DNA from: Cytophagaceae bacterium
GTDB taxonomy: Bacteria; Bacteroidota; Bacteroidia; Cytophagales; JAIYAX01
Assembly (NCBI GenBank): GCA_027488815.1
Contig: JAIYAX010000025.1
Coordinates: 124,001 to 188,000, forward strand
Direction of reading: 5' to 3'
DNA: 64,000 bases
The notes beneath the pieces were generated by a model. The model saw nothing but the letters and a program-made list of their open reading frames with translations, was not told the DNA's origin and did not search any database. The first letter of the stretch is position 1, and each line of letters begins with the position of its first letter. Below are positions 4,736-64,000 of the stretch, in pieces. Position numbers and translations under genes: made by a program.

Positions 4736-5813
4736 ATTCAATAAAATCAGCTACCCCTGCATGTATCCTCAGCAGCCAAGTAAGGCAAAAGTGATCGGTT
4801 ACTCTGTATTTTAGCCCATTGCTGAGGTATAAAAAAGAGGGGGCAGGCAGGCCTGTGTAGAGGTAAACGCCGGCATAGTTGAGCATAGAGAGCCTGTTGA
4901 CCATGGTTTCATGCCCCACTGTAAGGGCTGCCCGGTACAACTGATTTTCTCGGACTTCTCTTGCTTGATAATCCTCACGAATACCCTCGCTGCGGGTCAT
5001 TTCAATACCCCCAATCACTCCCCCTTTGAAGCTGTATTGGTATCGGCTGTGGAATCCTAGCACTTGTACTCCATGTAATTGTCCATTCAAATTGACCCGT
5101 TTAGCTGCTCCCCCCAAACGGATGGCATGTGTCCAGGACTTGGGTTTCTCCTCCTCTGCTTTATTCGCCTCTGCCTCTGCACGTGCTTTGAGCCAGTCAT
5201 GTGGGCTGTATTTGATTCCGGCATGCCAGCCAATCACGTTGATGCCTTTGTTCGGGTGAGAATAGGAGCCATTGGAAAAATGCGTAAGCGACAAACCGGT
5301 AAGGCATTGAACCTTTGGGCTCATTTGATAGCTTAGGTTCCAAGTCCCTTGCATGCTGGGGTTTAGGGCCTGTCCATAGAAGAGGTTATCCCGGTTTTTT
5401 TCGATGTCAAACTTTTGGCTTAAATAGGTAAGTCCGGTGGCAATCCTGAAGTAAAAGCCCAGATTTCCCTTTCGACGGTTGATTACCTCCATAAAACCCA
5501 GAGCTGAATAGCCCCTTCCCAAAACCTGAGGTTGGTAAAAGTTGAGGTAATTCAGGCTAAACCCATACCTGGGGAAGCGGTAAGCTTTGTGCCAGGCTTT
5601 ATCTCCAAGGGTTTGAATGGAGTAGTTAAGCTCAAGTCGTAGCGGGTTGCTCCATGCCGATTGTTTTACGTCGCTGGTATGAGCGAAGATGAAATTGTAA
5701 TTGGCCTCGGCCCCGAATACCCTTACTCCCGCTTTCGGAATTTTCTGTGCATGCACCTCATGGCTGAGCAGATAAATGCCGAATATTGCGAAGAGGAGTC
5801 GGGTAAAAAACAC
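4713..5813 (-). CDS. Acyloxyacyl hydrolase / PagL-like lipid A deacylase
   Basis: 366 residues with a signal peptide (FAIFGIYLLSHEVHAQ). The key motif THFSNGSYSHPNKGIN at about residues 177-192 matches the PagL pattern HxSN...PNxG, with the His178 and Ser180 expected for the active site. PagL enzymes sit in the outer membrane and remove an acyl chain from lipid A. This protein is roughly twice the length of classical PagL, with extra beta-rich sequence at the C-terminus ending FIEYGLVYEW, as in Bacteroidota relatives. The start is a GTG at 5813; no other in-frame start exists before an upstream stop codon. Deacylation itself is inferred. Confidence 0.75.
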   Translation of the reverse strand: MFFTRLLFAIFGIYLLSHEVHAQKIPKAGVRVFGAEANYNFIFAHTSDVKQSAWSNPLRLELNYSIQTLGDKAWHKAYRFPRYGFSLNYLNFYQPQVLGRGYSALGFMEVINRRKGNLGFYFRIATGLTYLSQKFDIEKNRDNLFYGQALNPSMQGTWNLSYQMSPKVQCLTGLSLTHFSNGSYSHPNKGINVIGWHAGIKYSPHDWLKARAEAEANKAEEEKPKSWTHAIRLGGAAKRVNLNGQLHGVQVLGFHSRYQYSFKGGVIGGIEMTRSEGIREDYQAREVRENQLYRAALTVGHETMVNRLSMLNYAGVYLYTGLPAPSFLYLSNGLKYRVTDHFCLTWLLRIHAGVADFIEYGLVYEW

Positions 5814-5838
5814 AAGTACAGGAGGAGATTACCTTCCG

Positions 5839-5846
5839 CAAAAATA
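5839..5846 (-). promoter_or_regulatory. Candidate -7 box for the PagL-like gene
   Basis: TATTTTTG on the minus strand fits TAnnTTTG and lies 26 bases before the GTG start at 5813, in the short divergent gap shared with the dehydrogenase gene. No clear -33 TTG was seen, so the call is weak. Confidence 0.35.
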
Positions 5847-5859
5847 GAAAATCTAAAAG

Positions 5860-6558
5860 ATGAACCTGAAAGGAAAAAACGCCATTGTTACCGGGGTAAG
5901 CAAAGGAATTGGTCTGGCAACAGTACAGTTGCTTTTAGAGCAAGGCATGAAAGTAGCTGGCTGGGGGAGGACAGCTCCCGATTTCAAACATCCGGAGTTC
6001 CGGTTTTTCAAAGTGGATGTGGGCAATGAGCAAGAGGTTAAAACTGCCTGTAAACTCAGTTCAACCTGGTTTAGCGGTCCGGTATCTGTTTTGATCAACA
6101 ACGCAGGACTAGGCTATTCAGCATTGTTTGAAGAAACCCCAACCGATCAATGGCTGGAGATGTTCAATACCAATGTGCATGGCATCTTTTTCTGCACCCG
6201 TGAAGTAATCTCTGACATGAAAGCTCAAGATGAGGGGCATATCATCAATATCTCCTCCATCGCCGGAAATACCGGGATTGAAAGCATGGCCGGCTACTGC
6301 GGTACCAAGTTTGCCGTAAGGGGGATCTCACAATCGTTGTACAAAGAACTTAGGAATTTTGGGATCAAAGTAAGCTGCATTTATCCGGGTTCAGTCAAGA
6401 CTAACTTTTTTGATAAGATCCCCTCAGTGACTGTGAATGACAATATGATGATGCCGGAAGATATCGCCTCTACCATCCTGCATTGCCTGAAGTCACCACC
6501 CAATTACCACCATATCGATATCGAAGTGCGGCCGCTGAGGCCGATGGGGAAAAAGTAA
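5860..6558 (+). CDS. Short-chain dehydrogenase/reductase (SDR)
   Basis: 232 residues with the classical SDR layout: TGVSKGIG cofactor loop (residues 11-18), LINNAG (79-83), NISSIAGN with the catalytic Ser (about 133), and YCGTK with Tyr146 and Lys150. It is an NAD(P)-dependent oxidoreductase in the cytoplasm, resembling 3-ketoacyl reductases, but the substrate is not fixed by sequence. It is transcribed divergently from the PagL-like gene. Its last 11 codons plus the following terminator are duplicated 3 kb downstream (9496-9563), on the far side of the delta-60 gene. Confidence 0.9.
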   Translation: MNLKGKNAIVTGVSKGIGLATVQLLLEQGMKVAGWGRTAPDFKHPEFRFFKVDVGNEQEVKTACKLSSTWFSGPVSVLINNAGLGYSALFEETPTDQWLEMFNTNVHGIFFCTREVISDMKAQDEGHIINISSIAGNTGIESMAGYCGTKFAVRGISQSLYKELRNFGIKVSCIYPGSVKTNFFDKIPSVTVNDNMMMPEDIASTILHCLKSPPNYHHIDIEVRPLRPMGKK

Positions 6559-6580
6559 ACCCCGATGTAACTCGGGGTTT
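6557..6580 (+). terminator. Terminator hairpin after the SDR gene (copy A)
   Basis: AAACCCCGA (6557-6565) pairs perfectly with TCGGGGTTT (6572-6580) around a 6-base loop and begins inside the SDR stop codon. T-rich tracts follow better on the minus strand (TTTACTTTTT), so it may work in both directions. The same hairpin recurs at 9530-9553. Confidence 0.7.
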
Positions 6581-6592
6581 GAATATAAATTA

Positions 6593-6660
6593 AGAGTTCT
6601 TTCGGGTGGGAACACCCGAAAGAACTCTTTCGATTGCTTGGTGGTGGAACACCAACCAAT
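6593..6660 (+). other. Two-hairpin intergenic element, copy A
   Basis: Hairpin 1 is a perfect 16-bp stem, AGAGTTCTTTCGGGTG (6593-6608) with its complement at 6613-6628, closed by a GNRA-type GGAA loop. Hairpin 2 (6633-6660) pairs TTGGTG with CACCAA, flanked by ATTG and CAAT. A diverged second copy lies at 9419-9484. Base changes between the copies preserve pairing in hairpin 1, so this is probably a structured RNA or a structured DNA repeat. The function is unknown; the stems could also act as terminators. Confidence 0.7.
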
Positions 6661-6828
6661 GGGTAGAGGAAAAAGAAAATAACAAGGTCATTTTCACTCT
6701 ATGACCTTCTTTTTTATGATAATTAGTTAATTATTTTCTGATTTCAATTAATTTGCCAAGAAGTTCAGCGCTTTGTCTTTTGACACATGTCTTAATTGTT
6801 ATTATTCTTGCATATATAAATTTAGATC
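6661..6828 (+). other. AT-rich non-coding leader upstream of the delta-60 gene
   Basis: No credible gene in this stretch. After a short purine-rich run (gggtagaggaaaaag) it becomes AT-rich and holds the promoter candidate at 6779-6810. The whole gap between the SDR stop and this gene is 270 bases. Confidence 0.6.
6779..6810 (+). promoter_or_regulatory. Candidate Bacteroidota promoter for the delta-60 gene
   Basis: TTTG (6779-6782) and TATTCTTG (6803-6810, one mismatch to TAnnTTTG) are 20 bases apart, the expected -33/-7 spacing. Transcription would start near 6817, about 12 bases before the ATG at 6829. Confidence 0.5.
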
Positions 6829-9405
6829 ATGAAAGCTAATACCTTGATCCTCTTCCTCTCTCTCTGCACCCTGCTGTGCTTCACAGTTCAGGCCCAGTTC
6901 TCTCAGCCTGGGGAGTTGGATACTACATTTAACTTTGGGCAACAGCATAGTTTTTTCGCCGATCCTGCCAATCCTGTACCCGGTGCAGGGGCAAATAGCG
7001 CTATCTATACAACATTACTTCAACCCGATGGAAAGATATTGATCGGGGGTGTCTTCGGTAGCTACAACGGCACCTTAGGCCAACTCATTGCCCGCCTGAG
7101 TCCCAATGGCAGTCAGGATGCCTCTTTCAACCCGGGTGCTGGGCCTAATGGAGAAGTCTATTCTCTCGCCCTGCAACCCGATGGCAAGTTGCTGATCGGG
7201 GGAGATTTCACCAGTTATAACGGCAACCCCCGCAACGGGATCGTCCGTCTAAATTCAGATGGCAGCCTGGATACCACTTTTAGCATAGGTTCTGGGGTAT
7301 TAGGAGGAGGAATCTATCCATCAGTCCGTTCCATCGCCCTTCAACCCGATGGCAAGGTGGTGGTTGGAGGAGATTTCACCAGCTACAACGGCACATCTCG
7401 AAACTACATTGCCCGCCTGAATTTAGATGGCAGATTGGATTCGACTTTCAACCCAGGTACCGGAGCGAATAATATAGTCTGGTCTCTCGCCCTTCAACCC
7501 GATGGCAAGATATTGATAGGGGGAGATTTCAACTTCTACAACGGCACTTTCCGCAACCGGATCGCACGTCTTAATGCAGACGGCAACCTGGATACTTCTT
7601 TCAACCCAGGCGTCGGAGCGGACTTTACAATCTATTCTCTAGTCCTTCAACCCAGTGGCAAGGTGTTAATAGGAGGTAGCTTCACCAGTTATAACGGCAC
7701 ACCCCACAACCGGATCTCCCGCCTGAATGCCAACGGTAGCCTGGATGCCACCTTCAACCCCGGCACTGGGGTGAATAGTACCATCTTCTCCCTAGCACTT
7801 CAACCGGATGGCAAGGTATTGATCGGGGGAGCTTTCACCAACTGCAACGGCACGCCCCGCAACCGGATCGCCCGCCTTAATGCCAATGGAAGCCTTGATT
7901 CTACCTTCAACCCTGGTACCGGGGCGGGTGGTTGGGTAAGGTCCCTAGCTCTTCAGCCTGATGGCAAGATATTGATCGGAGGAGGTTTCACAACCTTCAA
8001 CGGGATGCCTCGTAATCGTATTGTCCGTCTAAATGCAGACGCCAGTCTGGATGCCACCTTCAACCCGGTCACCGGGGCGAACAATTTCGTTGGGGATCTT
8101 CTCATTCAACCCGATGGCAAGGTGGTAATCGGAGGTGGTTTTACTAGCTACAACGGGATAGCCCGCAACGGGATAGCCCGCCTGAATGTCGATGGCAGCT
8201 TGGACACCACCTTCAACCCAGGTACAGGGGCGAATGGTGGAGTTTCTTCTCTGGCACTTCAACCCGATGGCAAGCTTTTGATCGGGGGAGGTTTCACTGG
8301 CTACAACGGTACGCCCCGTAACCGGATCGCACGCTTGAATGCTGACGGCAGCCTTGATGCCACCTTCAACCCGGGCACAGGGGCGAGTAGTAGCGTCTGG
8401 TCTCTCTTCCTTCAACCCGATGGCAAGGTGATGGTTGGAGGAGATTTCACCACTTACAACGGCACATCCCGCAACCGGATCGCCCGCCTGAATGCCAACG
8501 GCAGTCTTGATACTACTTTCAATCCGGGCATTGGGGTATCAGGTGGATCAACTCCATATGTCGGTTCCATTGCTCTTCAACAGGATGGCAGGGTGTTGAT
8601 TGGGGGAGAGTTCACTTCTTACAACGGCACATCCCGTAACCGGATCGCCCGCCTGAATGCCAACGGCAGTCTGGATACCACCTTCAACCCTGGCGCAGGG
8701 GCGAGTAGTATCGTCCAGTCCCTGGCCCTTCAACCCGATGGAAAGGTGTTGATCGGAGGAGATTTCACCAGCTACAACGGCACATCCCATAACCTGATTG
8801 CCCGCTTGATTTCGAACGGAAGTCTGGATACAACCTTCAACATAGGTACTGGGGTAATAGGAGTTGGAATGAATGCAAGAGTAAGTTCCGTCGCCCTTCA
8901 ACCCGATGGCAAGGCTTTGATTGTGGGAGATTTCACTTCTTACAATGGCACATCCCGCAGGAGGATTGCACGCTTGAATGCTGACGGCAGCCTGGATGCT
9001 ACCTTCAATCCGGGAACCGGGGCAAGTAGTTTCGTTTCTTCACTTGCCCTTCAACCCGATGGCAAGATATTGATCGGAGGAGATTTTACTACTTATTATG
9101 GCATTTATCGTCCTCGACTTGCAAGAGTACTTTCCACAGGAGCTGTCACTGGATGGAGTGATGAGGGATTTATAACCGAACAAGAGTTTTCCATCTACCC
9201 GGTACCCTTTAGTAGCCAATTCACGATCCAGACAGAAGCTCCCTTCCGTTATGAAATAATGGATTTAAAGGGCTTGGTGCACCTATCAGGCATCAGCGAA
9301 AGTACTGAAGCCACTTGCCATTCGGAAAATCTGGCCATTGGCATGTATCTAGTAAAGATTACAGTGAATGGAAAAAGCCATGTGAGGAAAGTAGTGAGGG
9401 AATAG
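6829..9405 (+). CDS. Secreted delta-60 repeat (DUF5122) beta-propeller protein with type A T9SS sorting domain
   Basis: 858 residues: a signal peptide (MKANTLILFLSLCTLLCFTV, cleaved near QAQ), 14 tandem delta-60 repeats of about 51 residues (core LQPDGKxLIGGDFTxYNGT then RIARLNxDGSLDxTFNPGTG), and a C-terminal domain from FSIYPVPFSSQFTIQ to HVRKVVRE that fits the type A T9SS sorting signal (PxP start, GMYLVKI, basic end). Delta-60 repeats are predicted to form beta-propellers; the ligand is unknown. The protein is expected to cross the outer membrane by type IX secretion and stay on the surface or be released. It is flanked by duplicated hairpins and by a duplicated SDR gene end, a sign of past insertion or recombination. 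Confidence 0.93.
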   Translation: MKANTLILFLSLCTLLCFTVQAQFSQPGELDTTFNFGQQHSFFADPANPVPGAGANSAIYTTLLQPDGKILIGGVFGSYNGTLGQLIARLSPNGSQDASFNPGAGPNGEVYSLALQPDGKLLIGGDFTSYNGNPRNGIVRLNSDGSLDTTFSIGSGVLGGGIYPSVRSIALQPDGKVVVGGDFTSYNGTSRNYIARLNLDGRLDSTFNPGTGANNIVWSLALQPDGKILIGGDFNFYNGTFRNRIARLNADGNLDTSFNPGVGADFTIYSLVLQPSGKVLIGGSFTSYNGTPHNRISRLNANGSLDATFNPGTGVNSTIFSLALQPDGKVLIGGAFTNCNGTPRNRIARLNANGSLDSTFNPGTGAGGWVRSLALQPDGKILIGGGFTTFNGMPRNRIVRLNADASLDATFNPVTGANNFVGDLLIQPDGKVVIGGGFTSYNGIARNGIARLNVDGSLDTTFNPGTGANGGVSSLALQPDGKLLIGGGFTGYNGTPRNRIARLNADGSLDATFNPGTGASSSVWSLFLQPDGKVMVGGDFTTYNGTSRNRIARLNANGSLDTTFNPGIGVSGGSTPYVGSIALQQDGRVLIGGEFTSYNGTSRNRIARLNANGSLDTTFNPGAGASSIVQSLALQPDGKVLIGGDFTSYNGTSHNLIARLISNGSLDTTFNIGTGVIGVGMNARVSSVALQPDGKALIVGDFTSYNGTSRRRIARLNADGSLDATFNPGTGASSFVSSLALQPDGKILIGGDFTTYYGIYRPRLARVLSTGAVTGWSDEGFITEQEFSIYPVPFSSQFTIQTEAPFRYEIMDLKGLVHLSGISESTEATCHSENLAIGMYLVKITVNGKSHVRKVVRE
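7018..9145 (+). repeat. 14 tandem delta-60 repeats (about 153-bp unit)
   Basis: Fourteen in-frame units, each beginning at a sequence like CTTCAACCCGATGGCAAG. Most are 51 codons; units 2, 10 and 12 are longer (56, 55 and 56 codons) because of extra residues after the TFNxG segment. Neighbouring units are very alike at DNA level (for example CACATCCCGCAACCGGATCG recurs nearly unchanged), so expansion or contraction by recombination is likely. Confidence 0.9.
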
Positions 9406-9418
9406 GATGTAGTGGAAT

Positions 9419-9484
9419 AAAGTTCTGTTGGGTGGGGACACCCGACAGAACTTTATGATTGGTCAGTGGCAGAACGTCAACCAA
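9419..9484 (+). other. Two-hairpin intergenic element, copy B
   Basis: Hairpin 1 pairs AAAGTTCTGTTGGGTG (9419-9434) with CACCCGACAGAACTTT (9439-9454) around a GGGA loop (again GNRA type), 16 pairs with one G-U. Compared with copy A, two pairs changed on both sides (G-C to A-U and U-A to G-C). Hairpin 2 keeps ATTGGT/ACCAAT (9457-9484) but its inner stem is weaker. It starts 13 bases after the delta-60 stop codon. Confidence 0.7.
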
Positions 9485-9495
9485 TGGGGGATGGG

Positions 9496-9563
9496 GAAGT
9501 GCAGCCATTGAGGCCGATGGGGAAAAAATAAACCCCGATCTGATTCGGGGTTTGCGTATAAAT
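9496..9563 (+). repeat. Duplicated 3' end of the SDR gene plus terminator (copy B)
   Basis: This segment matches 6523-6590. It can be read as EVQPLRPMGKK-stop against EVRPLRPMGKK-stop in the real gene, followed by the same terminator hairpin. Of four base differences in the coding part, three are synonymous, so the copy appears to derive from the end of a related, once functional SDR gene. No other part of that gene is present here. Confidence 0.75.
9530..9553. terminator. Bidirectional terminator hairpin (copy B)
   Basis: AAACCCCGA (9530-9538) pairs with TCGGGGTTT (9545-9553). On the minus strand it is followed by TTTATTTTTT, so it looks best suited to end the STAS-like gene that stops at 9575; it also lies downstream of the delta-60 gene on the plus strand. 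Confidence 0.65.
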
Positions 9564-9574
9564 GCAATTGGAGA

Positions 9575-9964
9575 TCAATTCGCCAACCAGTTCATGGCTT
9601 TTTCTTTGTCATCAAAAAACTGAAAAGCGGTATCAGGCCCTTCCTTCAAAACCTCATCAAGAGACATCTTGGTGAAAATATCATTGGGTACCACGTTGGC
9701 GATTTTACAACTTCCTGCAGCTCCTACCACCTCTTGTATGAAAGTGCCAAACAGCCAGGCCTGATCTTCAGGACTTACTGCACCTAAGTGGGTTGGGTCA
9801 AAAAACAAGCGGCCTGTTTTATGCTTGCGTACATACTCGAGTTCTTTATGCATGGCTTCATGCAGTTCTGAACTGGTCGGACTGGTTTTCCAAATGCAAC
9901 TGATCACCTTTTTTTCGGGATGAAAGTCGATGTTGACATAAGCGTTGTTTAATACTTGCTCCAT
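9575..9964 (-). CDS. STAS/SEC14-like (SpoIIAA-like) small protein
   Basis: 129 residues, no signal peptide or membrane segment. The pattern YVNIDFHPEKKVISCIWK, then ELEYVRKHKTGRLFFDPTHLG and a helix-rich end (DTAFQFFDDKEKAMNWL) fits small STAS/SEC14-like proteins common in Bacteroidota, which lack the phosphorylated Ser motif of true anti-sigma antagonists. The role is unknown; a modest regulatory or ligand-binding part is a guess. It is transcribed towards the delta-60 gene and ends at the shared hairpin. Confidence 0.7.
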   Translation of the reverse strand: MEQVLNNAYVNIDFHPEKKVISCIWKTSPTSSELHEAMHKELEYVRKHKTGRLFFDPTHLGAVSPEDQAWLFGTFIQEVVGAAGSCKIANVVPNDIFTKMSLDEVLKEGPDTAFQFFDDKEKAMNWLAN

Positions 9965-10238
9965 GAGATTTTTTTTAGGTAAAATTGAACAGTTTGCTAA
10001 CCTGAGGCAAGCAGAGGTAATAACTTAGCTGAACTCGCAATGGCCATGAGCCCATATCGTGAAAACAGGATGGCGGTGTAAGTTTTAGCTCAGATTGCGG
10101 CTTGTAAGGTTTCCCAATTTGCTGCGCATCAGAAGCCCTGAAAGCGAAGAATTTAGGAGCTGCGAACTGTGTATGCAGCGCTTTCTGCTGCAAAAGCGTA
10201 TTATTGCAATTGCTATTTTTGCTGGTAACATCTGAACT
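9965..10238. other. Divergent intergenic region upstream of gldA
   Basis: No convincing gene here; short open frames that cross it overlap gldA and show no family features. It holds the 5' flanks of the STAS-like gene (minus) and gldA (plus), including the -7 box candidate at 10214-10221. Confidence 0.6.
10214..10221 (+). promoter_or_regulatory. Candidate -7 box for gldA
   Basis: TATTTTTG fits TAnnTTTG and predicts transcription starting near 10228, about 10 bases before the gldA ATG. No good -33 TTG was found at the usual distance. Confidence 0.4.
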
Positions 10239-11162
10239 ATGTCGATTGAGGTCAAACGTTTGACAAAAACTTTTGGAACCCAACATGCTGTACATGACAT
10301 CAGCTTTGAGGTTCATAAAGGAGATATTCTTGGTTTTTTAGGACCCAACGGAGCAGGAAAATCTACTACTATGAAGATTGCCTCCGGGTTTATGCCTCCC
10401 ACTTCCGGGCGGGTATCTGTTTCAGGCTTAGATGTACAGAAAGAGCCTCTTGAAGTAAAGCGAAGGATTGGCTACCTGCCTGAACATAATCCGCTGTACC
10501 TGGACATGTATGTAAAGGAATACCTGCACTTTATTGGTGGCCTTCATGGATTTAAAGGAGCAATGCTCAACGACAGAGTTGAGGATATGGTGAGGCTTAC
10601 CGGACTGGACAGGGAGCAACACAAACTGATTGGCGCATTATCAAAAGGTTACAGACAAAGGGTTGGCCTGGCGCAGGCATTGCTGCACGATCCTGAAGTT
10701 CTTATTCTTGATGAGCCCACATCAGGACTGGACCCCAACCAAATAGTTGAGATACGGGAACTGATCAAAAGGGTAAGCGAGTCAAAAACAGTGATCCTTT
10801 CTACACATATCATGCAGGAGGTAAAGGCCATCTGCAACAGAGCTATTGTAATTCATCTGGGTGAAATAGTTGCAGACCGATCGCTAAAGGAGCTAAGCGC
10901 CGGTTTGGGAAAATCAGTGCTGTCAGTTGAGTTTGCAGATGATCAGGTGCCAGCCTCATTTTTTCAAGGTATTGAAGGACTTGGCAAGCCGGTTAAGACT
11001 GCACCAGGCAAATGGAGCATGGAGAGTACTGACCCTGTTCAGGCCCGTGCACGTATTTTCAGCAAGGCCGCTTCACAGCAACTTAACCTGATCGGTCTCA
11101 AAGAGGAGGAGCAATCTCTCGAATCCATTTTTCAGCAACTCACACAAGCTCCCAAAGCATGA
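10239..11162 (+). CDS. gldA: Gliding-type ABC transporter ATP-binding protein
   Basis: 307 residues. Walker A is GPNGAGKST (35-43), the ABC signature region is LSKGYRQRVGLAQALL and Walker B is VLILDEPTSGLDP. The order gldA-gldF-gldG with 4-base overlaps identifies it as the ATPase of the GldAFG transporter, needed for gliding in Flavobacterium johnsoniae, although related ABC exporters occur in non-gliders. It works in the cytoplasm at the inner membrane with GldF. The transported substrate is not known. The start ATG lies just after a TAnnTTTG promoter box. Confidence 0.9.
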   Translation: MSIEVKRLTKTFGTQHAVHDISFEVHKGDILGFLGPNGAGKSTTMKIASGFMPPTSGRVSVSGLDVQKEPLEVKRRIGYLPEHNPLYLDMYVKEYLHFIGGLHGFKGAMLNDRVEDMVRLTGLDREQHKLIGALSKGYRQRVGLAQALLHDPEVLILDEPTSGLDPNQIVEIRELIKRVSESKTVILSTHIMQEVKAICNRAIVIHLGEIVADRSLKELSAGLGKSVLSVEFADDQVPASFFQGIEGLGKPVKTAPGKWSMESTDPVQARARIFSKAASQQLNLIGLKEEEQSLESIFQQLTQAPKA

Positions 11163-11887
11163 AGCAGATTTTTATCAAAGAGGTAAATGCCTTTCTAAAC
11201 AGCCTGATTGCCTATCTGGTCATCTCTGTGTTTTTGGTAACGACAGGAGTGTTTTTATGGATCATTCCAAGTTCCAGTATTTTAAGCTACATGATCGCAG
11301 ATTTGGGTTCCCTGTTTGCGACTGCTCCTACCTTGTTTTTGTTTTTGATCCCTGCCGTCACCATGCGCAGTTTTGCTGAGGAAAAGAAAGCCGGCACCAT
11401 TGAGCTTCTGCTCACTCGCCCATTATCTGATCTTGACCTTATTCTGGGTAAATTTTTTGCAGCCTTTGCCTTAGTGGTGTTTTCCCTCCTCCCTACTTTG
11501 GTTTACTATGGCACTGTGTATTGGCTCGGATTACCGATAGGCAACATCGACAGCGCAGGGGTCGCAGGCTCCTACCTGGGTTTATTTTTACTGGCAGCGG
11601 TTTTTGTATCCATTGGCTTACTGGCTTCTTCATTGACCGACAGCCAAATCATCGCATTTCTTTTGGCGCTGGTATTTTGCTTTTTGCTGTATTATGGTTT
11701 TGACTTGTTGGCCGGCATTAATGTATGGGGCACCTGGTCAGAGTACTTAAGTGCTTTGGGTATGGCCCATCATTATCAGGCTTTGAGCAAAGGGGTGATT
11801 GACAGCAGAGATGTGGTTTACTTTTTTAGCCTGCTGGCTTTCATGCTGGCCACTACCAGATTAGTTCTAAGCACAAGAAACTGGTAA
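11159..11887 (+). CDS. gldF: Gliding-type ABC transporter permease
   Basis: 242 residues with about six hydrophobic helices. The N-terminus MKQIFIKEVNAFLNSLIAYLV and the loop FAEEKKAGTIELLLTRPLSD are typical of GldF/ABC-2 permeases. Its ATG overlaps the TGA of gldA, and gldG starts 4 bases after its stop. GldF is expected to form the inner-membrane channel with GldA and the auxiliary GldG. Confidence 0.92.
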   Translation: MKQIFIKEVNAFLNSLIAYLVISVFLVTTGVFLWIIPSSSILSYMIADLGSLFATAPTLFLFLIPAVTMRSFAEEKKAGTIELLLTRPLSDLDLILGKFFAAFALVVFSLLPTLVYYGTVYWLGLPIGNIDSAGVAGSYLGLFLLAAVFVSIGLLASSLTDSQIIAFLLALVFCFLLYYGFDLLAGINVWGTWSEYLSALGMAHHYQALSKGVIDSRDVVYFFSLLAFMLATTRLVLSTRNW

Positions 11888-57396: not shown

Positions 57397-60300
57397 TTAC
57401 CTAATCAGGGTAACGCTTCCCTGCTTTTTAAACGGACCAGTAAATTCCCCGTCCAATCCACTATAAATAACGATGTAAGGATAAGTGCCTACGGGCATAG
57501 GTTCTCCCTTATAGTTGCCATCCCAGCCCTCTGTTATATCAGTAGCATGGAAAATGGCCTCACCCCAACGGTTAAATATAGTGATCGAGAAATCTCTGAA
57601 GTAATTTCCAAAGACCCTGAAAGTGTCATCCTTACCATCGCCATTTGGTGTAAACCCAGTAGGCAAAAAGACCCTTGGGTTACACAAATCCTGAACAAAT
57701 AAGCTATCCATCGTAGGACAATTAAACTGGTTGAAAACAGTTAGCCTGTAATAGCCCGAGTCAGTTGCATAGAAGGTAGATAAAGTATCAAAAGAGTCGG
57801 CTCCTGCACCTTCCCATAGATAGCTGCTGAAACCGGGTACGGTTATGGCCAAAGAGTCTTCGTCATCTTTACAATACTTCAGTTTCTCCGGTAAAATCAA
57901 TTGTGGTAAAGGGTTGAATACCAAATTAAAAGTATCGTTGGCAAAACACTGCCCTATGCCGAACCGAACCGTATAACTACCCGGTTGAGTAGCATTTAAG
58001 ATGCTGTCTCTTTCATTTTCTATCAACAATCCATCTCTAAACCAAGTGTAAACTCCGGTTCCAGAGAGGCTGTCCCTATTGGTAGGTATCACAGTTACCG
58101 GCAAACCTAAACCTTGACATCCGGAAGTGTCTGTAGCATTAAGGATAGGTTTTACAGTAGATTTTAGCACTAAAGTATCTCTACCAGTACAGCCAAGCAC
58201 ATCCGTCACAGTTACAACAAACACCTGATCCACTGTTGGATCACTATCTGCAATGGTGTCAAACTGAAAATCACTATTGATGATAAACAGATTGTTTGTA
58301 GTCCACAAATAAGTTGCACCTAATATCGGGTTGACCTGCAAGCTCACCGTATCACCAAAACAAACTGTTTTGTCCTCTCCCACAAGCACTGGAGGTAAAG
58401 TCACATCTGTAAAGGCTTCATTGGAACAAGAGGAGAAGAAATAGAGGATTCTATGCTCACCCGGCTTTTCAAGTTTATAGGTTGAGTTATTTGCTCCAAA
58501 CAATATGGTATCGTTTCTAAACCACTGAAACACTCCTGCCACCGGCGGAATATTGATCGGGAATGAGTTGATCACCACAGAGGTGTCAAAGCAGAAATGT
58601 GGATCCAATGTGAACGAAGGAGCATCGATCACCCGAATGCCAACCGTATCCTGAGAACTACAACCCAAATTGTCAATGGCCTCCACTACAAATGCTGTGT
58701 CATTATTCGCTCTGACAGATACGAGCGGGCCCTGAGCGATAACAAATCCTGAAATGGTCTTCCAGCGGTAGCTCACGTTGGTTGTTCTGAATGAAGCAAG
58801 TAACACATCATCACCACGGCAAACAATTTGATCCAGACCTGCATCCGCAAATGGAGGAGGTACGATGTCTACCTCCATTTCTCCTAAGCTTGTAGGGCAA
58901 GAGCCTGAAGCGACACTTGTTAAAGTGAATTTGATCTTTCTTAATGCAAAATCATTAGCTGAAGGAACATAAAGAGGATCAAGCAAGGTGTTGCTGGTAG
59001 AGAACTGACCGGATCCTGTGGTTGTCCATACTCCTCCGGGTGAATTGAGAATGCTTCCGCTTAGTTGGTAAGCACCCTCCTGAAGACAAAGGTCAGATGG
59101 GCCGGTACTTACTACGGGCAATCTTTGTAAAGTATATGTTACCTGATCCGTTTGCGCTTTGCATTGACCTGGAAGTGTGCTTAACGTAAAGGTGATGCTG
59201 CTTCTTGCACGATCTGCCAGTGTTAGCTGATAATTTGAAATTAACGAATCTTCGCCTGGTAAATAAGTGCCAGTCCCATTTGAGCTCCACAAAGTTCCTA
59301 TGGCTTGATTTACAGATCCTGCTAAACTGATGGAGACAGCATCTTCACAGATCGTTTGATCAGGCCCTGCATTTACCACTGGAGCTGAAATAAACTGAAT
59401 GAGTTGCGTAGTTGTCACTGCCTGGCACAATCCATTTCCGCTCGTAGTTGCAGTTAGCACTACATTGCCTGCACTCTTGTCGGCAGCACTTGGGTAATAG
59501 TGAGCATTGGTCGAAGTCACACTAGGCAAGAAGATTCCAGTTCCTGTGCTAGTCCAAATTAACCCGGCGGCTCTAGTAATTTGAGCCGTAATGGCTATCG
59601 AGTCGACATCAGAACAAATCAATCTCAGACTGTCTGTGGTGATTAGTGGTGCACCTAAAATGGTAATTACCAAGCCATCATTTACAGAGTTACATGTTCC
59701 GTTGCCATCTGTTGTGAGGGTAAGTCCAACAAACCCGTTTGCTATGTCTTGAGCAGAGAGCTGGTAAATCGCATTTCGGTCAAAGGCGTTTGGTGAAAAC
59801 GTGCCCGTACCACTTGAAGTCCAGATACCACCTGTTGCAACGGTTATCAATCCACTCAGTTGAACATTTGGCTGATCAGCACAAATGGTATCGTCTGGAC
59901 CTGCGTTAACCGTTGGGGTAGGAGTGAAGATCACCTTAATCGAGTCTGTTACAGAGGCACACACATTTGTAGTAAATGAGGTGAGCCTGATAAAAATAGA
60001 GTCCTGAGCCTTATCACCCGCAGTTGGCTGGTAAAAGCCGTTAAGAGAGTTAATCGTTGGCAAAAAGGTTCCTGTACCTGTAGTAGACCAGAATCCGCCT
60101 CCTGCATTTAAGATCAATCCACTCAAAGGAACCAGGCTGGCATCTTTACAGATTTCAACATCAAAACCTGCGTTTACCTGAGCAACGGGTTGACTATTGA
60201 ACAAAATCGTTGAGATGGCAAAGGCAGAGTCACATGCGCCATTTCCTGTTGTAATCACCATCAGACTCACTGCATTTGCATCGTAATCAGCTTGAGAAGG

Positions 60301-63300
60301 GAAGTACAATGGGTTCGAAATATTGGGGTTACTAAAGGTGCCCGTGCCGCTGCTGATCCACTTTACGCCGCTTGCATTAGTGAAAGTAGAGCTCAACAAA
60401 ATGGACGTCGTATTTTTACAAATGTCTGTGAAATTCACTGTTGAGACAGTTGGAAGGCGTCTGATCCGTACAACGGTACTATCAAGTGCAGGCCTACAGG
60501 TTCCATTACCCAGAGTAACCATTCTGAAAATCAACGAGTCTCTTGCTTTATCCGCAGTTGAGAATTGATAAACAAGGTTACTAATAAAAGGGCTAGTACT
60601 GAATATCCCAGTTCCTGTGCTTGACCATTGAATTCCTTGAGCAACAGTGAAAGTAGCAGAAAGGCTTACAGTATTTGAGTTAGCACAAACTGTTTGTAAA
60701 GGAATGATCGATTTGGTAACAGTAGGAGTTAAGTTGAGTCTTACCGTATCTGAAAGAGGTCTGCAAATACCAACGCCTGTTGTGGTTGCAATCAGATCAA
60801 CAAACCCAGCTGCAATGTTAGCTGCTGTTGGTCTATACCAGATAGAAAAAGCATTCGGGCCGTTATTAGGCAAGGCTACTCCGGCAGCTGTCCTCCAGCT
60901 TGCACCAGTTGCACGGGTTGTTGTAGCTGAAAAGAGAACACTGTCAACATCTCTACAAACAGTGACATCAAAGCCTGCTGAAAGTGTGGGAGCCGGGTTG
61001 ATGTAGAGGTTCAACTGATCAGAAGCTGCCGTACAACCAAAATTACTTCCCACAGTTAAGCTTAAAATAACTATTGAGTCTGCTATGTCATCTGCTGATG
61101 GCAGGTAGGTGATATTGGCGACTGTACTTCCAGGAGCAAAAGACCCTGTGCCTGTACTTGTCCAGGTAAATCCACTGGCATTGGTGGTACTTGGTGAAAT
61201 TGAAATACCCGAAGTGTCAGAACAAATGGTTCTATCAGGTCCCAAATTTACCGTTGGTCCTGGTACAAATCGTAAGAGAATACTATCTACTACCGAAGGA
61301 CATGCTCCCGAACTTGGTGATGTAAGCCTTAATCGAATCTGACCAGCTGTAAGTTCGGCAGGAGTTGGTTGATAGGTTGCATTCAATACTGTGGCTGATG
61401 GGCTAAAAGTACCTGCTCCACCACTCCAGGTTCCTGAGGTTCCGGCTCCATTGAGTTGAGCAGGCAAACTGCTCGTGCAAATTGTATCTATTGCTGGTCC
61501 GGCATTGATGGCAAGAGCTGAGCTAAATGAAATGACAACAGTATCAGTGGAGGCTAGACAGGATCCCAGTCCCTGAGTTTGATAACTTAATCTAACAAAT
61601 CCGGCGCTGGTATCAGCTGTTACCGGCTTGTAAAAGACACTTCTGGCGGTATCATTTGGAATGAAAAATCCACCGCCAAGAGTGCTCCATAATCCTCCTG
61701 AGGTATTGCTTACAACAGCATTGATATTGATGCTGTCCAGACTTTTACAAACCTGAAAGTCAAAGCCAGTATTTACGGTAGGTGCCCTTGTCAAACTCAC
61801 CGTAGTGGTTTGTGAGATGTTTGGACAAGTACCATCAGTGATGGCTGTAATAGTAAACAAAAGGCTGCTTTGGGTTCTGTCTGACGTTGAAGGCTGGTAA
61901 AACATGACTGCACTTGCAGTATCGCTGATTACCCCTGTACCATTGGTCGTCCAGCGGATCCTTTGGGCATTCGTGAAGCTACCATTCAGGTCGACCGACT
62001 CCCCGTTAGAGCACATTTCTTTGGCAGGGCCAGCACTCACGGTCGCTAAGTTTGCAATCCGCACCAGCAAACTATCCGACACGGCGCTACAAGCCCCATT
62101 GAGTGTGGTGGTGGCTCGTATCCTCACCAAAGTGTCATTCGCTGCAGGAACGAAAAATACAGTATCTGCTAGTGTATTTGGGAACATGCTTCCAGTTCCT
62201 GTAAAAGACCATTGCACCCCACCAGCCTGAGCATACTGAGCCCGAATTCTAACTCCACCGGAGTTGCGGCAAATTGAGGTGTCATTACCAATTTCCAAAG
62301 TGGGTAAAGGCTGGATAATGATCTGCATGGTGTCCCTTCTGGTTTTGCAAATTCCAGAACCATCAGAGCTTAGAATCAATCGAACCTGACCCGCTGCTCT
62401 GTCTGTAGGTGATGGGAAGTATTGACCATTTAATGTTGTGTTGAAGGGATCAAAGCCACCTGAACCAAGTGTTGACCAAACACCACCGTTTGCATTGGTT
62501 ACAGACCCATTAAGGTTTACAGCTGCAGTGGAGCGACAGATGGTTTGATCAGATCCTGCATTTACGATAGGTGCCCTTCTGATACTGACATCAATAAACT
62601 GACTTACGGTGTCGCAAAGGCCGTTACCGGTTGTGAAGAATGTGATTCGCACAATTCCGCTGGCGATATCAAGTGCAGAAGGTATATAAGTGGTGAAAAA
62701 GCCGGTATCAGCAGGTGAGAAAACACCTGTTCCTGAACTTCTCCAAATCCCGCTTGAGGCAACGCTAACTAATGCTGTTAACGGTACTGCATTGGTATCG
62801 CTACATACTTCTTTGTTACCTCCTAAATTAACGGTTGGTATTGGCGTAATGGTAATCAGCAAAGTGTCGGATGGTGGAGGTGTACAAGGTCCATTTGCTG
62901 TGCTGGTTAGGATGAGGCGTGCAAAACCACTTTGTCTTTCGGTAAGGGTTGGTACATACGTGGCATTGAGGTCAAAAGCATTCGGGAAGAAATTGCCGCC
63001 TCCTGTGCTGTTCCACACCCCTCCGCCCGCATTAGCAACGGTACCGGAAAGTGGTATACCCAACGTTGAGGCACATATCGTGATGTTTGTTCCTGCATTT
63101 ACAATGGGTGCTCTCAAAATCCGGACTTTCATGGTGTCTATTGCCGGTGCACAATTGGGAGAATTTCGTGTAGCAGCCCAAACAAATAGGCTATCTCTGG
63201 CACGGTCGGCAGTTGATAGCACATACACAGCATTGGGGTCAAGACTGTCAGGGCTGAAGGTTCCTGTGCCATTTGTTCTCCACAAAACCCCTCCTGCCTG

Positions 63301-64000
63301 GGTGAAAACTGCATTCAGAGCAAGAGTTGTGTTTGTTTCGCAAATTTCAACATCCAGACCAACGGAAATGGTAGGCTCCTCAGCAAAACGGATGCTGATG
63401 GCATTGGAGTCTGCTGGGCAAATACCTACACCTGTAGTGGTCAACCTCAAAGAAACAAATTGTGCCTGCCGATCGGCAAGGCTTGGGAGATATGCTGCAT
63501 TGAGGGTGTTGATATTGGGGACAAATTGCCCTGAACCACTACTAGTCCATCTACCTCCGGTAGCGTTTTGAACAGATCCTGCAAGTTGAATGGTGTCAAC
63601 ATCAGTACATACGGTGTCTCCTATACCCGGATTGGCAGATGGCAAAGGTTGTAAGGTGATAACCACTGAATCAGTCCTTGCCGCACAAACACCATTCCCA
63701 ATGGTTGATAAATAAAGTTTTACGGAACCGGTGTCAATATCAGCCGCTGAAGGGATATACATTCCGGTAAGGGCATTGTTGTTAGGAGAAAAAATGCCAG
63801 ACCCTGCACTACTCCATTGACCTCCAAGTGCAACAGTTACTGCGCCATTTAACAATACCTGAGGGTTTGCCGAACAAAGGATTTGATTGGTTCCCGCATC
63901 TACCGTCGGAGCATCAGCCAAGTCAAAAACTACAGTGTCTCTTGACGGCTGGCAAGTTCCATTTCCGGTTGTGGTTAGCACCAAAACAACCCTTTGTGCA
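57397..64000 (-). CDS. Giant repeat adhesin with type B T9SS sorting domain (N-terminus beyond the window)
   Basis: About 2200 residues are visible and the frame stays open to the right edge, so the signal peptide and first repeats lie outside. The visible part holds 19 complete and one partial tandem repeat of about 88 residues (consensus PTVNAGxDxTICxxxxxVxL, then GGVWSSTGTGTFSPN and a final GNGxCxxxxDSVVIxI). PKD-like domains follow, and then a gliding-associated C-terminal domain (FLPTGFTPNGDGKDDTFRVF to KQGSVTLIR). It is of SprB type: a surface adhesin exported by type IX secretion, with PorP/SprF-like help from the adjacent gene. The ligand is unknown. Confidence 0.93.
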   Translation of the reverse strand, partial: AQRVVLVLTTTGNGTCQPSRDTVVFDLADAPTVDAGTNQILCSANPQVLLNGAVTVALGGQWSSAGSGIFSPNNNALTGMYIPSAADIDTGSVKLYLSTIGNGVCAARTDSVVITLQPLPSANPGIGDTVCTDVDTIQLAGSVQNATGGRWTSSGSGQFVPNINTLNAAYLPSLADRQAQFVSLRLTTTGVGICPADSNAISIRFAEEPTISVGLDVEICETNTTLALNAVFTQAGGVLWRTNGTGTFSPDSLDPNAVYVLSTADRARDSLFVWAATRNSPNCAPAIDTMKVRILRAPIVNAGTNITICASTLGIPLSGTVANAGGGVWNSTGGGNFFPNAFDLNATYVPTLTERQSGFARLILTSTANGPCTPPPSDTLLITITPIPTVNLGGNKEVCSDTNAVPLTALVSVASSGIWRSSGTGVFSPADTGFFTTYIPSALDIASGIVRITFFTTGNGLCDTVSQFIDVSIRRAPIVNAGSDQTICRSTAAVNLNGSVTNANGGVWSTLGSGGFDPFNTTLNGQYFPSPTDRAAGQVRLILSSDGSGICKTRRDTMQIIIQPLPTLEIGNDTSICRNSGGVRIRAQYAQAGGVQWSFTGTGSMFPNTLADTVFFVPAANDTLVRIRATTTLNGACSAVSDSLLVRIANLATVSAGPAKEMCSNGESVDLNGSFTNAQRIRWTTNGTGVISDTASAVMFYQPSTSDRTQSSLLFTITAITDGTCPNISQTTTVSLTRAPTVNTGFDFQVCKSLDSININAVVSNTSGGLWSTLGGGFFIPNDTARSVFYKPVTADTSAGFVRLSYQTQGLGSCLASTDTVVISFSSALAINAGPAIDTICTSSLPAQLNGAGTSGTWSGGAGTFSPSATVLNATYQPTPAELTAGQIRLRLTSPSSGACPSVVDSILLRFVPGPTVNLGPDRTICSDTSGISISPSTTNASGFTWTSTGTGSFAPGSTVANITYLPSADDIADSIVILSLTVGSNFGCTAASDQLNLYINPAPTLSAGFDVTVCRDVDSVLFSATTTRATGASWRTAAGVALPNNGPNAFSIWYRPTAANIAAGFVDLIATTTGVGICRPLSDTVRLNLTPTVTKSIIPLQTVCANSNTVSLSATFTVAQGIQWSSTGTGIFSTSPFISNLVYQFSTADKARDSLIFRMVTLGNGTCRPALDSTVVRIRRLPTVSTVNFTDICKNTTSILLSSTFTNASGVKWISSGTGTFSNPNISNPLYFPSQADYDANAVSLMVITTGNGACDSAFAISTILFNSQPVAQVNAGFDVEICKDASLVPLSGLILNAGGGFWSTTGTGTFLPTINSLNGFYQPTAGDKAQDSIFIRLTSFTTNVCASVTDSIKVIFTPTPTVNAGPDDTICADQPNVQLSGLITVATGGIWTSSGTGTFSPNAFDRNAIYQLSAQDIANGFVGLTLTTDGNGTCNSVNDGLVITILGAPLITTDSLRLICSDVDSIAITAQITRAAGLIWTSTGTGIFLPSVTSTNAHYYPSAADKSAGNVVLTATTSGNGLCQAVTTTQLIQFISAPVVNAGPDQTICEDAVSISLAGSVNQAIGTLWSSNGTGTYLPGEDSLISNYQLTLADRARSSITFTLSTLPGQCKAQTDQVTYTLQRLPVVSTGPSDLCLQEGAYQLSGSILNSPGGVWTTTGSGQFSTSNTLLDPLYVPSANDFALRKIKFTLTSVASGSCPTSLGEMEVDIVPPPFADAGLDQIVCRGDDVLLASFRTTNVSYRWKTISGFVIAQGPLVSVRANNDTAFVVEAIDNLGCSSQDTVGIRVIDAPSFTLDPHFCFDTSVVINSFPINIPPVAGVFQWFRNDTILFGANNSTYKLEKPGEHRILYFFSSCSNEAFTDVTLPPVLVGEDKTVCFGDTVSLQVNPILGATYLWTTNNLFIINSDFQFDTIADSDPTVDQVFVVTVTDVLGCTGRDTLVLKSTVKPILNATDTSGCQGLGLPVTVIPTNRDSLSGTGVYTWFRDGLLIENERDSILNATQPGSYTVRFGIGQCFANDTFNLVFNPLPQLILPEKLKYCKDDEDSLAITVPGFSSYLWEGAGADSFDTLSTFYATDSGYYRLTVFNQFNCPTMDSLFVQDLCNPRVFLPTGFTPNGDGKDDTFRVFGNYFRDFSITIFNRWGEAIFHATDITEGWDGNYKGEPMPVGTYPYIVIYSGLDGEFTGPFKKQGSVTLIR
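58862..64000 (-). repeat. At least 19 tandem ~88-residue (about 267-bp) repeats in the adhesin
   Basis: Units follow each other without linkers and carry two Cys: one in the first strand (TIC, VCS, EIC) and one near the end (GxC). The spacing is conserved over all units, which supports intra-repeat disulfides. DNA-level identity between units is lower than in the delta-60 gene, indicating an old array. Confidence 0.88.

Follow-up and report, generated by a model that had tools for sequence, protein, structure and literature searches.

The DUF5122 (delta-60) beta-propeller gene in the window, which is the whole stretch of 64,000 nt analyzed here (G000:C1:124001-188000, from a genome of 3.37 Mb in 30 contigs), is enclosed by two nested pairs of direct repeats. 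To this arrangement we give an even chance of having arisen by insertion of a palindrome-bounded module at the shared terminator of convergent SDR and STAS-like genes, with duplication of the boundary. The evidence comes from the repeats themselves, from the SDR loci of other genomes and from the distribution of the palindromes in this genome.

Nested direct repeats around the DUF5122 gene

The features of the locus are as follows.

5860..6558, plus strand: SDR gene (short-chain dehydrogenase, adh_short; ORF, PF00106 E 2e-46)
6523..6590, plus strand: repeat A, the last 11 codons and stop of the SDR gene plus a hairpin (repeat search, BLAST)
6557..6580, no strand assigned: hairpin T inside A, 9 pairs, tail ACTTTTT, terminator-like on the minus strand (terminator scan, folding z -3.1)
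6592..6629, plus strand: palindrome H1, 17-bp perfect stem and loop of 4 (inverted-repeat search; 6588-6665 folds at z -7.8)
6632..6663, plus strand: palindrome H2, a hairpin with CCAATGGG tail (repeat search, genome search)
6780..6808, plus strand: promoter-like site within the insert (a 10/12 consensus match only)
6829..9405, plus strand: DUF5122 (delta-60) beta-propeller gene, 858 aa, with T9SS sorting tail (ORF, Pfam)
9417..9456, plus strand: palindrome H1', just 3' of the DUF5122 gene stop (inverted repeat of 18 nt, 94%; fold z -6.5)
9457..9488, plus strand: palindrome H2', a decayed hairpin that retains the CCAATGGG tail (direct repeat 78%; BLAST)
9496..9563, plus strand: repeat A', the second copy of the SDR end and hairpin (repeat search, BLAST)
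9530..9553, minus strand: hairpin T' inside A', 9 pairs, tail ATTTTTT, predicted intrinsic terminator (terminator scan; fold z -3.1)
9575..9964, minus strand: STAS/SpoIIAA-like gene, 129 aa (ORF; PF11964 E 0.002, sub-threshold)
10239..11162, plus strand: gldA-like ABC transporter ATPase gene (Pfam ABC_tran), the usual downstream neighbor of SDR elsewhere

A and A' are direct repeats of 68 nt with 87% identity (BLAST E 3e-18 within the masked stretch 5501-10300), which confirms the near-identity noticed in a first-pass annotation of this DNA. Codon comparison likewise bears out the two protein ends that it had read, EVRPLRPMGKK* in A and EVQPLRPMGKK* in A', with three of the four coding differences synonymous (CCG/CCA, CTG/TTG and AAG/AAA) and one changing the residue (CGG/CAG). 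The remaining five differences lie in the hairpin loop, where three of the six bases differ, and 3' of the hairpin, and none in the 9-bp stem. The second pair, B/B', bounds the DUF5122 gene (~69 bp, 80% identity, E 4e-11), each B being composed of the palindromes H1 and H2. All repeats have the same orientation with B/B' nested inside A/A', and the order SDR-A-B-gene-B'-A'-STAS agrees with the annotated succession of SDR end, hairpin, gene, hairpin and SDR end. Only a few bases separate each A copy from the neighboring palindrome. The copies differ by 13% in the A/A' pair and by 20% in the B/B' pair, which makes an assembly error unlikely. The annotation had also stated that copies at unrelated places would speak against its view; the whole-genome search found the SDR-end part of A in two copies only in the 3.37-Mb genome, so that the view was not refuted in this respect.

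The DUF5122 gene matches PF17164 in 14 stretches (1.8e-221) and PF18962 for the sorting tail (9e-8), both above cut-off, and it encodes a secreted repeat protein with a T9SS tail. No recombinase or integrase ORF was found in 6591-9495, where apart from the DUF5122 gene only two antisense overlaps reach 60 aa.

SDR loci of other genomes and the terminator-like hairpin

We collected 42 orthologous SDR loci in two search rounds (14 + 28), of which 41 are distinct, two being from the same genome with 100% identity over 3,696 bp. The second round fetched 30 loci from 120 genomes matching at E 1e-55, many with flanks of only 1.5 kb, and the genomes searched included none other from the same family, the relatives from the GTDB scan being at 56-68% identity. 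A gldA-like ABC gene lies at most 326 bp from the SDR match end in 35 of the 41 distinct loci. Among the other six, it lies at 1,107 bp (L197) and 6,350 bp (L093), and it was not found within the stretch examined in L058, L061, L092 and L184. Neither a DUF5122 gene nor the STAS-like protein of the window was detected downstream of SDR in any of the 41 loci (E 1e-3; many flanks of 1.5 kb). The annotated proposal that the segment is an insertion is thus supported relative to these genomes, in most of which SDR is followed directly by the gldA-like gene with neither gene between. The ABC gene of the window, for which Pfam gives ABC_tran, we call gldA-like.

The STAS-like gene is named from a sub-threshold Pfam match (PF11964, 19.3 bits against a cut-off of 25). 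Its best non-self match, at 33%, is in its own genome, and no close orthologue was found among the 390 genomes of the order searched. On the other hand, Fulvivirga imtechensis (L093) carries a minus-strand STAS-like relative (24%, E 5e-8) convergent to SDR, at 10760-11194 of that locus and 79 bp beyond the SDR match end. Because this is one of 41 loci and the similarity is low, the pair gives a hint, not proof, of an ancestral convergent SDR-STAS arrangement. Since SDR-STAS adjacency is seen in that one locus and the homologue is distant, the STAS-like gene itself may have been brought in with the insert.

A' faces the minus-strand STAS-like gene, whose end is at 9575. On the plus strand, the stem of hairpin T is not followed by a T-run; the T-tract of the minus strand is the complement of AAAAAG or AAAAAA in the last SDR codons. 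By its sequence and fold, T' looks like an intrinsic terminator of the STAS-like gene, which suits a gene arriving from the right. The unchanged stem together with the loop changed at three of six bases is the pattern expected of a retained terminator, and service to the STAS-like gene may be the reason why the stem and T-tract are conserved in A'.

A genome-specific family of REP-like palindromes

With up to three mismatches, H2 was found at 29 places and H1 at 9 places in the genome (reversed control 0). Searches that used different patterns and mismatch limits found each of them in its own genome alone, H2 out of 390 from the order and H1 out of 395 from the phylum. On contig C7, a TacA-like antitoxin/GNAT pair lies between two blocks, one of H1 with nine H2 and the other of H1 with five H2 (267 bp aligned, 90%). 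A related composite of 178 bp (97%) stands on both sides of a DUF2442 gene on C2, and shorter, more diverged versions of it lie next to a ParE-like toxin gene, a PIN-domain pair and a further DUF5122 gene. On C28, the end of a ParE-like gene is followed by four H2. The repeat arrays of C7, C19 and C28 are situated at the ends of contigs and have probably been cut short there. ParE_toxin (PF05016) was found at five genome places, two of them ~0.4 kb or less from an H2 site by distances taken by hand, a post hoc count, PF05016 having been searched after toxins were seen near the repeats.

Several neighborhoods may be described further. The TacA-like/GNAT pair lies next to a DUF5615 gene near a contig end (L011, G000:C7:17000-24583, at 5780-7370). 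The C2 array (L086, G000:C2:22000-36000, at 5840-11830) contains a second DUF5122 gene along with genes of the DUF2442, PIN-domain, ParE-like and DUF5615/DUF433 kinds, several of which are separated by palindromic composites. RHS-type genes with near-same core and differing ends lie near H1 or H2 sites at the end of L085 and in L087 (C15 and C19). Known RNA families gave only two matches in 6400-10300, far below gathering score, and in L011, L086 and L010 no match reached that score. Among PMC papers on RAYT/REP, palindromic repeats, cassettes and DUF5122, titles and the beginnings of abstracts held no description of the H1/H2 repeats.

The genome has roughly 10-15 DUF5122 paralogues in 3.4 Mb. 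The hairpin scan of 11 other paralogue stretches, excluding the paralogue of the C2 array, found neither H1 nor H2. These stretches speak against a general travel of DUF5122 genes with H1/H2, and the link between DUF5122 and the repeats is thus confined to the window and, through the array, to C2. One hairpin by a DUF5122-like gene (L138:1970-1994), AGCAATGGGG-AAATG-CCCCATTGGT, has CAATGGGG in common with the H2 tail.

H1/H2 resemble the REP/RAYT system in being short intergenic palindromes of many copies and lineage-specific occurrence; they differ from it in carrying no consistent GTAG or CGTC tag and no cognate transposase alongside. H2 has the CCAATGGG tail in 23 of 28 picks and no GTAG/CGTC tag, these being nearest-to-center picks that may repeat a site. 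As for H1, CGTC touches the stem in one of nine copies (L051) and its complement GACG stands shortly behind the stem in three (L046, L049 and L050), and the copies in the window have neither. The CGTC-tagged palindromic repeats of Bacteroidetes are reported to be 20-40 bp and often near gene 3' ends (PMC3733652). The window palindromes are alike in both respects, whereas their conserved H2 tail is CCAATGGG rather than CGTC and the H1 tag is in some copies only. Subclass 2.6 of the REP-associated tyrosine transposases (RAYT/TnpA-REP) in Bacteroidetes is reported to have atypical hairpins alongside (PMC6006769). The present genome has five Y1_Tnp places, four with other palindromes close by and one without any, and the hairpin lists of these loci show H1 or H2 beside none of the five RAYT genes. 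A RAYT of its own as the transposase of H1/H2 was rejected on this ground. Because no cognate Y1 transposase lies beside them and the tag is absent (H2) or confined to some copies (H1), we call H1/H2 REP-like, not REP. Y1 transposase genes in L097, L098 and L099 (C6, C10 and C17) lie near palindromes beginning GGCGCAAGTC and TCGCCCCCGTT, and these are likely a separate REP/RAYT set.

Possible histories of the locus

The insertion history, the best explanation of the locus, would run as follows. SDR and the STAS-like gene on the minus strand would once have been convergent, with one hairpin terminator, the 68-bp A, in common. The DUF5122 gene, bounded by the REP-like H1-H2 pairs, would have entered at the SDR/STAS boundary and duplicated it, so that A would now end SDR and A' the STAS-like gene. 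The nested order would reflect a B-bounded module inside the duplicated A, made either at once or in two steps. Were A and A' to recombine, SDR-hairpin-STAS would be restored; recombination of B with B' would leave A-B-A'. What is observed in favor of this explanation is the nested A-B-gene-B'-A' order, the lack of the gene pair at this site in other genomes, the minus-strand terminator shape of T' and the palindromes, which are specific to this genome and flank toxin-antitoxin modules as well; that the SDR/STAS pair is older than the insertion and that A was duplicated in a single event we infer. The insert without a recombinase, and the other DUF5122 paralogues without nearby H1/H2 in the scanned stretches, count against it. 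Target duplications made by transposases are usually far shorter than 68 bp. The length of A thus makes repair, template switching or recombination likelier, and the most likely route would be recombination or template switching at the palindromes rather than a dedicated transposase.

The divergence of 13% in A/A' and 20% in B/B' also counts against the insertion history, as the two pairs may differ in age. The greater divergence of B/B' would suit a tandem duplication of the SDR end first, with the palindromes and the gene entering between the copies later, and repeated growth is seen in the palindrome arrays elsewhere. However, that order of events requires a separate event, and on either side no more than a few bases lie between A copy and palindrome; we consider it rather unlikely. 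The first-pass annotation had instead derived A' from a functional SDR homologue, in which case homologous recombination would have brought in the SDR end of a relative together with the DUF5122 segment. The three synonymous changes of four and the 13% divergence would fit a relative. Under neutral models with transition weights of 1 to 100, however, at least three synonymous changes of four have a probability of 0.05-0.13 when the upstream copy is fixed and only the downstream one changes freely, and of 0.18-0.35 when both copies change. Moreover, the Q of A' stands where all 41 distinct SDR orthologues have R, and upstream of A' there is only H2' and nothing SDR-like. The A/A' pattern therefore needs no functional donor gene, the terminator role may explain the conservation, and the derivation from a homologue was not supported; import from a relative seems unlikely.

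Integration attachment sites typically show a gene end with its terminator in direct repeat, and A/A' do so too, as would be left by a small element integrated site-specifically at the SDR 3' end. However, no recombinase ORF lies between the repeats and no integron integrase of the genome passes the curated cut-off, which makes this history very unlikely. Chromosomal integron cassette arrays have palindromic composites between toxin-antitoxin modules, and the H1-H2 composites likewise separate successive toxin-antitoxin modules at C2 and C7, as they would if they were the attachment sites of an integron-like cassette. However, TIGR02249 for the IntI integrase gave six matches, none over the cut-off, in this genome of 99.6% completeness. 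An integron was rejected on this count, and a cassette of integron type is highly improbable.

In a wider form of the insertion history, the H1-H2 composites would be portable boundaries, by which toxin-antitoxin modules and secreted beta-propeller genes enter, accumulate side by side and are lost again as cassettes, no integron integrase being needed, the window locus being one such cassette with target-site duplication. We regard this as a quite unlikely generalization, and the locus as for the most part common genome traffic, though with an unusual arrangement of repeats. If the composites do bound movable modules, the genome would show a spread of toxin-antitoxin and secreted repeat protein genes in Bacteroidota without known recombinase. 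At least, the locus gives a readable case of insertion between convergent genes, each of which now has a copy of the terminator that they shared.

Elsewhere in the window, a 27-nt repeat occurs in eight copies at 59002-63816, with a spacing of mostly ~530 nt or multiples of ~267 nt, and these copies probably belong to another repeat-protein gene.
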